From positions 62,001 to 126,000 of the forward strand of contig NZ_VIGW01000003.1 of NCBI RefSeq assembly GCF_007858435.1: a stretch of DNA of 64,000 nt, written 5' to 3'. This DNA is from Tsukamurella asaccharolytica (GTDB lineage: Bacteria > Actinomycetota > Actinomycetes > Mycobacteriales > Mycobacteriaceae). Below are positions 52,231 to 56,505 of this stretch, one piece after another. Both the position numbers and the translations under genes were made by a program. Under the pieces are notes generated by a model. The model made no database searches. It was not told where the DNA came from and saw only the letters and a program-made list of their open reading frames with translations. Within the stretch, counting starts at the first letter, position 1; each line of letters starts with the position of its first letter.

Positions 52231-53475
52231 TCAGGCCGCGCCAGGTACACCGAGTAGCGCGTCGACCGCGGTCGCCACGGCGGTCGGGGCGCTCGCGTCG
52301 GGGCCGCCGACGGTGACGGCCCTCTCCGCCCAGGCGTCGATCGCGGCAAGGGCGCGCGGGGTATCCAGATCGTCCGCCAGGTACCGGCGGACCCGGGCGA
52401 TGAGTTCGTCGCCCTCGGGGCCCGAGGACGCGCGGAAGGCGCGTCGCCACAGGTCCAACCGCGCCAGCGCGCGCTGCAGCACCTCGTCGGACCACGGCCG
52501 GTCCTGCCGGTAGTGGCCTTCGAGCAGGCCCAACCGGATCCCCGCGGGATCGACGCCGGAGCGTCGCAGCGTCGAGACGAAGACGAGGTTGCCGCGGCTC
52601 TTGGACATCTTCTCGCCGTCGAGGCCGATCATGGCGGCGTGGACGTAGTGCCGGGCGAATCGGCGTTCGCCGGTCGCCGCCTCGACGTGCGCGGCGGAAT
52701 ACTCGTGGTGCGGGAAGATCAGGTCGCTGCCACCGCCCTGGATGTCGAACGTCGCGCCCAGGCGGTTCGCCGCGATCGCGGCGCACTCGATGTGCCAGCC
52801 GGGTCGGCCGGGACCGTACGGCGAGGGCCACGACGGTTCGCCGGGCCGCGCGGCGCGCCACAGGATCGGGTCGATGGCGTCGCGCTTGCCGGGGCGATCG
52901 GGGTCGCCGCCCCGTTCGGCGAACAACGTCTCCATGGTCGCTCGGTCGTAGCCGGACTCGTAGCCGAACTGCTCCGTGGCGTCGGCACGGTAGTAGACGT
53001 CCGGGTACTCGGGGTCGTCGACGACGTACGCGGAGCCGTTGTCCAGGAGCTTCCCGACGAGGTCGACCACCTCCCCGACCGATTCCACGGCACCGATGTA
53101 GTCGCGCGGCGGGATGACCCGCAGCGCCTCCATGTCCTCGCGGAACAGGTCCGTCTCGCGGGCGCCCAGATCGCGCCAGTCGATCCCGTCGCGCTCGGCC
53201 CGCTCGAACAGCGGGTCGTCGACGTCGGTCACGTTCTGCACGTAGTGCACGTCGTGCCCGTTGTCCCGCAGCACGCGGCCCACCAGGTCGAACGCGAGGT
53301 AGGTGGCGGCGTGCCCGAGGTGCGTGGCGTCGTACGGGGTGATACCGCAGACGTACATGCCCGCCACCGGCCCGGGGTTGACCGGTCGCACCGCGGCGTC
53401 GGACGTGTCGTAGAGGCGCAGCGGGACCGACGGTCCGGGCACGGTGGGGACGGTGGGACTCGGCCAGGAACGCAT
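52231..53475 (-). CDS. mshC: Cysteine:GlcN-Ins ligase MshC (mycothiol synthesis)
   Basis: A 414-residue ATP-dependent ligase that joins cysteine to glucosaminyl-inositol, the third step of mycothiol synthesis. It is a cysteinyl-tRNA synthetase relative: the zinc/HIGH region is [23 protein letters not shown] is [10 protein letters not shown], and the anticodon domain of CysRS is missing, which separates MshC from CysS. The ATG at 53475 has TAGGGT six bases upstream. Mycothiol is the main thiol of actinobacteria, which supports the taxonomic call. Confidence 0.95.
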
Positions 53476-53481
53476 GCCCCC

Positions 53482-53487
53482 ACCCTA
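53482..53487 (-). promoter_or_regulatory. Leaderless -10 box for mshC
   Basis: TAGGGT, then six bases, then the ATG at 53475. Confidence 0.5.
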
Positions 53488-53705
53488 TGCGCCCGTGCGC
53501 GGACGGAGATTCCGGGCCGCGCCGGAGCGCAGCCGCTCCCCGCGAATCCCGACGCGCACCGATGCCGGCGAGATGTGGACGAAGAGCGAACATCGAGGGG
53601 CAGTCCTGTGCCACAGGAACTCTCAGCAAACTCTTGCCCCCGGTCTCTAGCGGGCGGCGCGATCTGACGCCATGCTTTACCCACATTCGACGAAGAGCTC
53701 GTACC

Positions 53706-53714
53706 AGGAGGTGA
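53706..53714 (+). promoter_or_regulatory. Strong ribosome binding site of the Cys-tail operon
   Basis: AGGAGGTGA is a perfect Shine-Dalgarno five bases before the ATG at 53720. It decides this start over an ATG at 53672 and implies a leadered, efficiently translated mRNA, unlike the many leaderless neighbours. Confidence 0.85.
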
Positions 53715-53719
53715 ATGTC

Positions 53720-54667
53720 ATGTCCCGCAATGAATTCGAGGAAGTCCTGCACCGACTGTTCCCCGCCGAGACCCGCTGGTTCCTCTACCTCCTCCTCGGA
53801 GCACTTGCGTTCGCCCTGACCTGGCGTTTTCTGACCGCGGTACGGCGTCCGGTGGTCGCCTACCCGCCGCTCACCGTGGCGGAGATCGCCTGCCTACGGT
53901 CTTGGCAGGCCCCGCTGCTCGCGACGATGGGCCTGCTCCGGGCGGGCGGACACCTCGACGCCGAGGGCCGCGCGGACCCCGCGCACCCGTTGCCCCCGGA
54001 CGCGGACGAGTTCACCCGGCGCATGCTGCACCGGCTCGACGGCTCGCAGTTCTCCGTGAACCTGCTGCTCCACGACCAGCTCGCACCGCTGAAGGAGCTC
54101 GAGGACGGGCTCGCGGCACGCGGCTACCTGCGCACGAGCACCGAGCGCTGGCGTTCCCGGTTCGGCGTGGTGCCGCTCGCGGCCGTGGTGGTCGCGGGAA
54201 TCGTCTGCACGCCGGTGGTGATCCTGACCGGGCGCGTTCCCGTGGGAGCGGCCATCCTGTCCTACCTCGTCCCGTCCGTGCTCACGGCCGTCTTCCTCCT
54301 CCGCCCGCTGGCGTCGGTGCCCCGCACCACCCGCGCCGGAGCGCGGCTCTGTGCGGCTGCGAAGGCCCGCGCGAGCTACCTCAAGCCGGCCCTGCGACCC
54401 GCCTTCTCCACCTACGGCGCCACGGCTGTGGGCATGTCCGTCGCGCTCTTCGGTACCGCCGCGCTCTGGCAGATCGACCCGCGCTACGCCGCGACGATGG
54501 CCGTGGCAGGCGGAGCCGGAGGAGGAGGCGGAGGAGGTGGGGGCTCGTCCTGCGGTAGCTCCTTCACCTGTGGTGGCTCCTCCTGCAGCGGCGGCGGATC
54601 GTCGTGTGGCGGCGGAGGCGGCTGTGGAGGCGGAGGGTGCGGGGGCGGAGGGGGGTGCGGAGGATGA
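53720..54667 (+). CDS. TIGR04222-type membrane protein with Gly/Cys-rich tail
   Basis: A 315-residue protein. Transmembrane segments are at about 21-38, 150-170, 178-198 and 232-250. Between the first two lies a soluble region (50-145) with LTVAEIACLRSWQAPLLATM and a FTRRMLHRLDG motif. Residues 264-315 are almost only Gly, Ser and Cys, with cysteines at 278, 284, 289, 296, 302, 307 and 313, spaced 5-7 apart. This is the architecture of the TIGR04222 family, whose tail is thought to be modified. The next gene, overlapping by four bases, is a DUF692/MNIO oxidase, the enzyme class that modifies cysteines in RiPP precursors. I infer a membrane-anchored modified peptide; its function is unknown. 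Confidence 0.85.
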   Translation: MSRNEFEEVLHRLFPAETRWFLYLLLGALAFALTWRFLTAVRRPVVAYPPLTVAEIACLRSWQAPLLATMGLLRAGGHLDAEGRADPAHPLPPDADEFTRRMLHRLDGSQFSVNLLLHDQLAPLKELEDGLAARGYLRTSTERWRSRFGVVPLAAVVVAGIVCTPVVILTGRVPVGAAILSYLVPSVLTAVFLLRPLASVPRTTRAGARLCAAAKARASYLKPALRPAFSTYGATAVGMSVALFGTAALWQIDPRYAATMAVAGGAGGGGGGGGGSSCGSSFTCGGSSCSGGGSSCGGGGGCGGGGCGGGGGCGG

Positions 54668-55530
54668 GCGTCATGACGCGCACCGTTCCCGCCCTCGGCC
54701 CGCTCGGCCTGGGGTGGCGGCGCGAGATCGCTGGCGTCATCGCCGACCTGCGCCCGGGATTCTGCGAGGTCATCGCGGAATCGGTCGGCCTGCGGCGCGG
54801 CCGGGCAGTGCCGGACCCGTTGCTGCTGGCGCTCCGTGACCGAAGAGTGCCCGTGGTGCCGCACGGGGTCGCGCTCTCCCTGGGCGGGGTCGACGAGCTC
54901 GAGCCGGCACGGGTGCACCGTCTGGCGGCGTGCGCCGAGGCCTTCGACGCGCCCCTCGTCAGCGAGCACATCGCCTTCGTCCGCGCGGGCGGCGTCGAGG
55001 CCGGGCACCTGCTGCCCGTGCCCCGCACCCGCGAGGCGCTGGACGTGCTGGTGCGCAACATCGCCCGCACGCAGGATGCGCTGCCGGTGCCGCTCGCGGT
55101 GGAGAACATCGCGGCATTCCTGCGGTGGCCCGAGGAGGAGTACACCGAGGCGGAGTTCCTGACCGAGCTGCTGGAGCGCACCGGAGCCCTCCTCGTGCTG
55201 GACGTGGCGAACGTCTACGCGAACGCGCTCAACCGTGGCCGCGACCCGCACGACGAGCTGTCGCGGCTGCCCGTCGACCGGATCGCCTACAGTCACGTCG
55301 CCGGCGGCGCGGAGGGCGGCGGCCGGTACCACGACACGCACACCGATCCGGTGAATGCCGGAGTCCTGGCGCTGGTCACGGCCCTGCGGGGGCGCGCCGA
55401 CGTTCCGTTCATGCTGGAGCGCGACGGGCGTTACCCGCCCGCGGCGGAACTCTTCGACGAGCTCGACGCGATCGCCGCGGCGGCGCGGTGCGCGCCGATC
55501 ACCGAGCACGCGAGGGCGGCGTGGACATGA
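54664..55530 (+). CDS. DUF692 / MNIO family multinuclear iron oxidase
   Basis: A 288-residue TIM-barrel protein of the DUF692 family, now called MNIO (MbnB, TglH, ChrH type). Candidate iron ligands are all present: His67 (VPHGVALSLG), His102 (SEHIAF), Glu147 (AVENIAAF), Asp180 (VLDVANVYANALN), His211 (YSHVAGG), His223/His226 (YHDTHTDP) and Glu252 (MLERDG). Characterised members oxidatively rearrange cysteines in precursor peptides. The start at 54664 overlaps the upstream TGA (ATGA); an ATG at 54673 is an alternative. The obvious substrate is the Cys-rich tail encoded just upstream. It overlaps the small gene downstream by four bases. Confidence 0.9.
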   Translation: MSVMTRTVPALGPLGLGWRREIAGVIADLRPGFCEVIAESVGLRRGRAVPDPLLLALRDRRVPVVPHGVALSLGGVDELEPARVHRLAACAEAFDAPLVSEHIAFVRAGGVEAGHLLPVPRTREALDVLVRNIARTQDALPVPLAVENIAAFLRWPEEEYTEAEFLTELLERTGALLVLDVANVYANALNRGRDPHDELSRLPVDRIAYSHVAGGAEGGGRYHDTHTDPVNAGVLALVTALRGRADVPFMLERDGRYPPAAELFDELDAIAAAARCAPITEHARAAWT

Positions 55531-55712
55531 GCCTGCGGGAGCGCCAGGAGGCGCTGGTACGGGCCCTCGTCGCCGATGGCCCCGTGCCCGAGGGCTTCGA
55601 TCCGGACGAGGTCGCCGCCGCCGGCGCGGTGTGCCGGCACAAGCGGGACGCGCACGCGGCGCACGCACAACAGCACCGTCGACCGCGGTGGCTGCCGTGG
55701 CGGCGCGGCTGA
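55527..55712 (+). CDS. Small basic protein coupled to the MNIO gene
   Basis: A 61-residue protein: an N-terminal helix (MSLRERQEALVRALVADG), a PVPEGFDPDEVAAAGAVC linker with one cysteine, then a His/Arg-rich, Trp-containing tail (RPRWLPWRRG). Its ATG overlaps the MNIO stop by four bases. Many MNIO enzymes need a partner protein to bind the precursor; this may be a minimal partner. It also resembles, from memory and unverified, a short domain fused C-terminally to DUF692 proteins in streptomycetes. It converges on the SCO1664-family gene. Confidence 0.75.
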   Translation: MSLRERQEALVRALVADGPVPEGFDPDEVAAAGAVCRHKRDAHAAHAQQHRRPRWLPWRRG

Positions 55713-55728: not shown

Positions 55729-56505
55729 TCAGAAGGGCGGCCACGGGATCGGCCGGCTCGGGGTCGGCAGCGGCATCGCGCCGAGCTCGGTGAGGATCGC
55801 GGCCCGCGCGACGAGGGCCTCCTGCTCCTCGGCGGTCACGAGCCCGGCCAGGTCCGGCGGCGCGGAGCGGAAGGACTCGATGTCGGCGAGCAGCTCGTCG
55901 CCGACGGGCCGACCCGCCCACCCCCACAGCACCGTGCGGAGTTTCGGCGCGGCATGCAGGCAGATGCCGTGGTCCACGCCGCGGACGCGGCCGTCCGGGC
56001 CGGTGAGCACATGGCCGCCCTTGCGGTCGGCGTTGTTGATGAGCACGTCGAGCACCGCGAGGCGCCGCAGCCGCGGGTCGTCGGCGTGCGCGAGCGCGAC
56101 CTCGGCGATGCCGTCCGGCGCGTCCGCGTCCTCGACGTAGCCGGTGAAGACCGTGAGGTAGCCGTCGGGCACCCCGTCGAGCGGGAACAGGTCCACGAGC
56201 TCAGGGCTCTCATCCGGCTCGTCGATCCACCGCTGCACCATCCCCGGGCCGAGCGGGCCGTCGCGCAGCACCGTCTCGGGGATCAGACCCCAACCGAGTG
56301 CCTCCGAGACGCGGTACGACGCGACCTCGCGGCCCGCAAGTGTGCCGTCGGGGAAGTCCCACAGCGGGACCTCGCCGCGGACGGGCTTGTAGACCGCCCG
56401 CTCCCCCGTCTCGCCGAGCTCGCAGAGCAGGGTGGCGTTGGAGGCACTGGTGATCCGGCCGAGGATCGTCAGATCGGCGCTCTCGAGGTCCACCGCGACA
56501 TCCAC
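55729..56505 (-). CDS. SCO1664 family protein (PI3/4-kinase-like fold)
   Basis: A 258-residue protein of the SCO1664 family (Rv2133c in M. tuberculosis). Kinase-like features are visible: a lysine in RAVYKPVRGE, a catalytic-loop-like VLDVLINNADRKGGHVL and a metal-binding-like GVDHGICLH. Its role is not established; the conserved neighbours are a histidine phosphatase and DUF3090. The GTG start at 56505 directly follows the DUF3090 stop with no spacer, so the genes are co-translated. Confidence 0.88.
   Translation of the reverse strand: MDVAVDLESADLTILGRITSASNATLLCELGETGERAVYKPVRGEVPLWDFPDGTLAGREVASYRVSEALGWGLIPETVLRDGPLGPGMVQRWIDEPDESPELVDLFPLDGVPDGYLTVFTGYVEDADAPDGIAEVALAHADDPRLRRLAVLDVLINNADRKGGHVLTGPDGRVRGVDHGICLHAAPKLRTVLWGWAGRPVGDELLADIESFRSAPPDLAGLVTAEEQEALVARAAILTELGAMPLPTPSRPIPWPPF

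Follow-up and report, generated by a model that had tools for sequence, protein, structure and literature searches.

The locus examined here raises the question of which molecule is modified by an MNIO (DUF692) oxidase whose gene lies between those of a membrane protein and a very small protein. The window analysed was a 64,000-nucleotide stretch of DNA from Tsukamurella asaccharolytica, and the locus and its surroundings comprise the following features:

53706-53711, + strand: AGGAGG ribosome-binding site ahead of the TIGR04222 gene, read from the sequence
53720-54667, + strand: gene of the TIGR04222 membrane protein, 315 residues (TIGR04222 profile, 83.7 bits; hydropathy; AlphaFold2)
54512-54664, + strand: Gly/Ser/Cys tail of that protein, residues 265-315 with seven cysteines, the predicted substrate segment (conserved end; MNIO dependence)
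54664-55530, + strand: gene of the MNIO (DUF692, PF05114) oxidase, 288 residues (PF05114 profile; iron-ligand positions)
55527-55712, + strand: gene of a reduced partner protein, 61 residues (profile of long partners; N-terminal module of a PME-type-2-like protein)
52231-53475, - strand: mshC, the divergent left neighbour, which marks the insertion site and lies outside the cassette (TIGR03447, 714.5 bits)
55729-56505, - strand: SCO1664-family gene, the right neighbour, outside the cassette (TIGR03843)

The original prediction described three genes coupled by ATGA overlaps beside mshC, and this layout was confirmed: the overlaps lie at 54664-54667 and 55527-55530, all three genes are on the + strand, and mshC and the SCO1664-family gene form the two flanks. 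The GGAGG of the ribosome-binding site was kept at the same place in all 11 aligned Tsukamurella loci. Alignment across 11 Tsukamurella revealed several conserved stretches in the mshC-cassette gap (53476-53719), among them CACCCTAT, close to mshC, and, farther from mshC, a CTCTCAG element; perhaps the conserved stretches of this gap are divergent promoters. No metal-regulator site ahead of the cassette was recognised by eye in the aligned mshC-TIGR04222 gap of the 11 Tsukamurella.

The second gene had been predicted to encode a DUF692/MNIO enzyme with a full set of iron ligands, and both parts of this claim held. The protein matched Pfam PF05114 at 260 bits (cut-off 25), and it contains equivalents of all nine TglH iron-ligand residues, H67, H102, E147, D180, N183, H211, D224, H226, and E252, for which PMC10880893 served as the reference. 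All nine positions were invariant in a ten-row MNIO alignment. The enzyme scored below the equivalog cut-offs of BufB (NF050167, 187.5 versus 310 bits) and of the methanobactin enzyme MbnB (TIGR04159, 26.5 versus 325 bits), and its named relatives at 85-86% identity were Tsukamurella. The source genome contains a single match each to TIGR04222 and PF05114, both in the cassette.

The first gene likewise encodes the TIGR04222-type membrane protein with a Gly/Cys tail that had been proposed; its score against NCBIfam TIGR04222 is 83.7 bits with a cut-off of 43, and the tail contains seven cysteines. Hydropathy analysis gave four hydrophobic segments (residues 21-39, 150-168, 175-193, and 234-252). 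The AlphaFold2 model of this protein had a mean pLDDT of 83.4 and values below 50 at residues 265-315, and the tail is predicted by the model to be disordered. The end of the tail was conserved: G312 and C313 did not vary in any of the 50 rows of alignment A2, whose mean column identity was 35%, and CGG, CGGG, or CGGS closed the protein in 58 of the 71 nearest upstream TIGR04222 relatives. The EGKCG motif is absent from the cassette tail, so the chemistry cannot be read from the tail sequence.

Some further features of this family were noted. The TIGR04222 protein of the window showed a weak similarity to DUF2207_C (E 0.062), which did not reach the Pfam cut-off. In several TIGR04222 matches with the lowest scores (L345, L346, L349, L350, L352, L353, and L355), the Gly-rich tail is closed by Trp and not by Cys/Gly. 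The window carries one copy of the TIGR04222 gene, and a tandem pair of matches was present in the Tsukamurella loci L130, L131, L132, and L139; in L130, L131, and L139, both tandem proteins have Cys tails, which differ from each other. The pN/pS value of TIGR04222 mixes paralogues and was set aside.

Antoine et al. 2025 (PMC12452194) proposed Cys-tailed TIGR04222 proteins as likely MNIO substrates and described TIGR04222-MNIO clusters as found mostly in Actinomycetota, with a Ser/Gly-rich tail containing Cys and without a DUF2063 gene. The window resembles these clusters in the adjacency of the two families and in the C-terminal Gly/Ser/Cys tail. The original prediction that the tail is the substrate is therefore not new, but it survived a test of adjacency, and it was strengthened by the dependence of Cys tails on MNIO and by a one-helix variant of the system, all given below. 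We consider it likely that the three genes encode an MNIO modification system anchored in the membrane. In the predicted mechanism, the MNIO enzyme, assisted by the 61-residue partner, would bind the Gly/Cys tail at the C-terminus of the TIGR04222 protein and oxidise the tail cysteines with O2 at its multi-iron site; the role of the modified tail at the membrane would most likely be to bind a metal, for instance copper.

A survey in which the two families were rarely adjacent had been named as a refutation of this proposal, and the survey was run on a class sample of 394 genomes, with TIGR04222 matches in 135 and MNIO matches in 94. The comparison covered the 150 TIGR04222 matches listed, from 119 of the 135 genomes, and 107 of the 109 MNIO matches listed, two short fragments of G198 being left out. 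Adjacency was not rare: a listed TIGR04222 match lay within 5 kb of 68 of the 107 MNIO matches, on the same strand in every one of the 68 pairs, with the membrane gene first in 40 and the enzyme gene first in 28. The adjacency of TIGR04222 and MNIO is above chance. Among the best 80 of 553 confirmed MNIO relatives, 71 had a same-strand TIGR04222 gene no more than 3 kb upstream; eight of the nine loci lacking one were at a contig start, and the ninth (L235) was not.

Within the genus, the three genes were inherited together. The trio was whole in 11 of 16 Tsukamurella genomes (MNIO scored at >250 bits), and all three genes were absent in the same five. All 11 cassettes were beside mshC, and the distance from mshC to the SCO1664 gene was 2175-3268 bases in these genomes; an empty site with a gap of 23-130 bases was found in four of the five cassette-free genomes, and mshC was not found at the cut-off in the fifth. 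That mshC adjoins the cassette in all 11 Tsukamurella that carry it could be taken to mean that the divergent neighbour is functionally linked and that the cassette belongs to mycothiol or other thiol redox metabolism. However, mshC remains where the cassette is absent, and among the 80 named loci, covering up to 5 kb on each side, mshC and the SCO1664 gene were found only in the two Tsukamurella, and we regard a role in mycothiol metabolism as highly improbable.

The relation of Cys tails to MNIO was surveyed over 165 listed TIGR04222 genes in 128 genomes, 89 with and 39 without MNIO. Fifteen of the 165 genes came from the genus search, in which three weak or doubled rows were unused, and several of the surveyed genes were weak matches under the TIGR04222 cut-off. 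A strict rule scored some short Cys tails as missing, and a looser rule was set after inspection. Under the looser rule, a Cys tail was present in 69 of 89 MNIO-positive genomes versus 1 of 39 MNIO-free genomes (Fisher p ~1e-16, kinship ignored); under the strict rule, the counts were 65 of 89 versus 1 of 39 (p ~8e-15, kinship again ignored). Counted per gene with the looser rule, Cys tails were found in 69 of 90 genes that had MNIO within 5 kb, in 10 of 33 whose genome encodes MNIO at another place, and in 1 of 42 whose genome has no MNIO. Within family f19, the strict rule applied to 125 of the 165 genes gave a Cys tail in 13 of 14 MNIO-positive versus none of 14 MNIO-free genomes, and the remaining 40 genes added one tail-less genome per side (G291 with and G071 without MNIO). 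In the sole MNIO-free exception, G079, the Cys-tailed gene ends about 140 bases from the contig end, and the MNIO gene may lie off the contig. Many MNIO-free genomes kept the Gly-rich tail, often with a Gly/Asp end, and the cysteines were gone.

These counts bear on an alternative in which the tail cysteines are never modified: the tail itself would bind metal or form disulfides, MNIO would act on some other peptide, and the TIGR04222 protein would be a scaffold or sensor. Such a division of roles fits the 13 genomes of family f21 in which a listed TIGR04222 gene is found no more than 5 kb from MNIO and no listed TIGR04222 protein has a Cys tail, but it sits poorly with the near disappearance of Cys tails from MNIO-free genomes. 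In total, 20 of the 89 MNIO-positive genomes lacked a Cys tail on all of their listed TIGR04222 genes under the looser rule. Fifteen of them belong to one genus, perhaps Streptomyces, of family f21, the 13 just mentioned being among these, and the other five are G181, G232, G038, G291, and G020; in G038, a Cys/Gly stretch is present but not terminal. Because the f21 enzyme lies near tail-less TIGR04222 genes in 13 genomes, it probably has another substrate there. When nine f21 loci were inspected by eye, a partner-like frame was seen in four (L022, L027, L031, and L032), and five (L011, L019, L021, L027, and L032) had a protein of 258-290 residues whose end is rich in proline. Ten Cys-tailed genes had their MNIO elsewhere in the genome and not adjoining (e.g. 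L005, L009, L140-L142, and L189-L191). In the Tsukamurella loci L140, L141, and L142, this is a further Cys-tailed TIGR04222 gene away from any MNIO, and an enzyme encoded at another place in these genomes may act on its tail in trans.

The third gene had been called a small partner, and this designation gained a basis in homology. The 61-residue protein matched no Pfam or NCBIfam family, and it scored 51 bits against a profile of 60 long partners, the family encoded after MNIO in relatives, whereas the best of 200 shuffled sequences reached 7.2. By this sequence comparison, it is a cut-down member of the partner family that comprises the N-terminal module of about 45 residues and is missing over half the length typical of partners. 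According to PMC12452194, many TIGR04222 clusters seem to be without a partner gene; here, a partner motif was found directly after MNIO in 73 of the 80 nearest relatives (the best 80 of 553 confirmed). The pN/pS value over residues 1-43 was 0.12 in 10 of the 11 Tsukamurella genomes, L135 being left out since its start motif was not found, and judged by this sequence measure the third gene is under purifying selection. Among the chains aligned, the predicted model of a long partner was nearest to MbnC (7dz9_C). The 61-residue protein quite probably acts as the MNIO partner.

The same protein is small, basic, and encoded directly after MNIO, and it has a single Cys, in VCRHKRD, that is conserved among the short forms from Tsukamurella and Mycolicibacterium/Mycobacterium; it could accordingly be thought the modified peptide itself, with the membrane protein serving only to anchor or export it. 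The aligned long relatives, however, have no Cys at this position (mostly LLRKR), the nine invariant columns exclude it, and the model of the long form most resembles an MNIO partner, which leaves a substrate role for the 61-residue protein very unlikely. For the partner role, PME-type 2 of PMC12452194 offers a parallel, as it is also encoded after MNIO; its Micromonospora matsumotoense example (158 residues) corresponds to the third gene of L261 by species and length. Unlike PME-type 2 as described there, the window protein consists of the N-terminal module only, about 45 residues, and it may be one of the very small "adjamnio-V" proteins of that paper. The same text leaves open how TIGR04222 systems function when no partner is evident. 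As a separate observation, a partner-like protein was fused in frame to a membrane protein in two Rhodococcus-group genomes (L242:5810-7354 and L258:5810-7369), and the fused membrane protein resembles, by eye, a cytochrome b/molybdopterin-type oxidoreductase.

A second, stripped-down MNIO system provided the main reason for placing the modification on the tail. A second MNIO (182-190 bits) was present in 11 of 16 Tsukamurella, and in three gene-called loci it was flanked by genes that appear to be dapC and dapD. The second loci (L119-L129 and L294-L302) consist of the enzyme, a partner-like gene, and one or two proteins of 75-121 residues with one N-terminal helix followed by a Cys-rich Gly/Ser tail, often with His. 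In all 11 Tsukamurella second loci, one or two such one-helix proteins are encoded after MNIO, together with the partner-like gene; within the same family, genus g144 has the set with two one-helix proteins in eight genomes, and genus g146 has one one-helix protein encoded ahead of the enzyme gene. The partner profile matched in all 20 second-MNIO loci (31.5-55.5 bits), and our own TIGR04222 profile matched in none of the 20. In a FastTree phylogeny that covered 170 MNIO segments, with midpoint rooting and with labels assigned from the locus, the second-system enzymes formed one clade of 17 (support 1.0; 15 labelled and two unlabelled), nested in a clade of 167 with a TIGR04222-associated majority (enclosing nodes 0.99, 0.99, 0.57, and 0.96), and three DUF2063-type enzymes stood apart. 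The pN/pS values of the one-helix proteins were 0.34-0.40 (three sets of eight).

Since the anchor is swapped while the enzyme, the partner, and the tail persist, the tail and not the TIGR04222 body is the likely substrate. The one-helix proteins have only the tail type in common with the TIGR04222 proteins, alongside a related enzyme and partner, and this further argues against unmodified tail cysteines, an alternative that we consider unlikely. Modification of the tail by MNIO is, in our view, probable. The balance of evidence also leans towards a more general unit, in which an anchored Cys tail is combined with MNIO and with a partner reducible to a module of about 60 residues; TIGR04222 would be one anchor among others, and the one-helix proteins would represent a family of MNIO substrates not described before, with genes that mostly follow that of the enzyme. 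No description of a one-helix Cys-tail family was found in the literature searched. Measured against that literature, the genome-by-genome comparison of Cys tails with MNIO, the assignment of the 61-residue protein to the partners, the empty Tsukamurella sites, and the one-helix proteins are new.

Known MNIO products are mostly peptides. The cassette resembles the bufferins/oxazolins (BufB, HvfB) and methanobactin (MbnB/MbnC) in combining MNIO with a partner, the action on cysteine being a prediction here. In those systems, the substrates are small peptides, mostly with signal peptides, whereas in the cassette the cysteines lie in the tail of a membrane protein, without EGKCG. The enzyme also has all nine iron-ligand positions in common with TglHI of the 3-thiaglutamate pathway; the substrate of TglH is a single C-terminal Cys that has been added to a peptide scaffold, and here several cysteines lie near the end of a membrane protein. 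By analogy with the bufferins/oxazolins, as described in PMC12452194 and PMC13419390, from which the proposals for product chemistry and metal derive, a thiooxazole-like heterocycle is a tentative candidate for the product, and binding of copper by that product is somewhat more doubtful still. A modified tail fixed to a membrane protein, if true, would be a new place for MNIO chemistry. The one-helix version would offer substrates of about 100 residues that can be directly expressed and measured, and the 60-residue partner would show the minimum helper protein that MNIO needs.

Charge distributions were used to consider whether the tail lies inside or outside the cell membrane. Among 50 TIGR04222 proteins, charge counts favoured a cytoplasmic position of loops 1 and 3 at TM2 in 50, at TM3 in 43, and at TM1 in 36, and the signal at TM4 was weak (28 for and 12 against). 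If TM4 spans the membrane, these counts, weak as they are at TM4, favour an N-out/C-out arrangement with the tail outside. They place the large loop in the cytoplasm, in contrast to the "large periplasmic domain(s)" given by Antoine et al. 2025 (PMC12452194). All 30 called one-helix proteins had no Lys/Arg ahead of the helix window and three to nine in the next 20 residues after it, and the same charge rule predicts that their tails are inside, in the cytoplasm.
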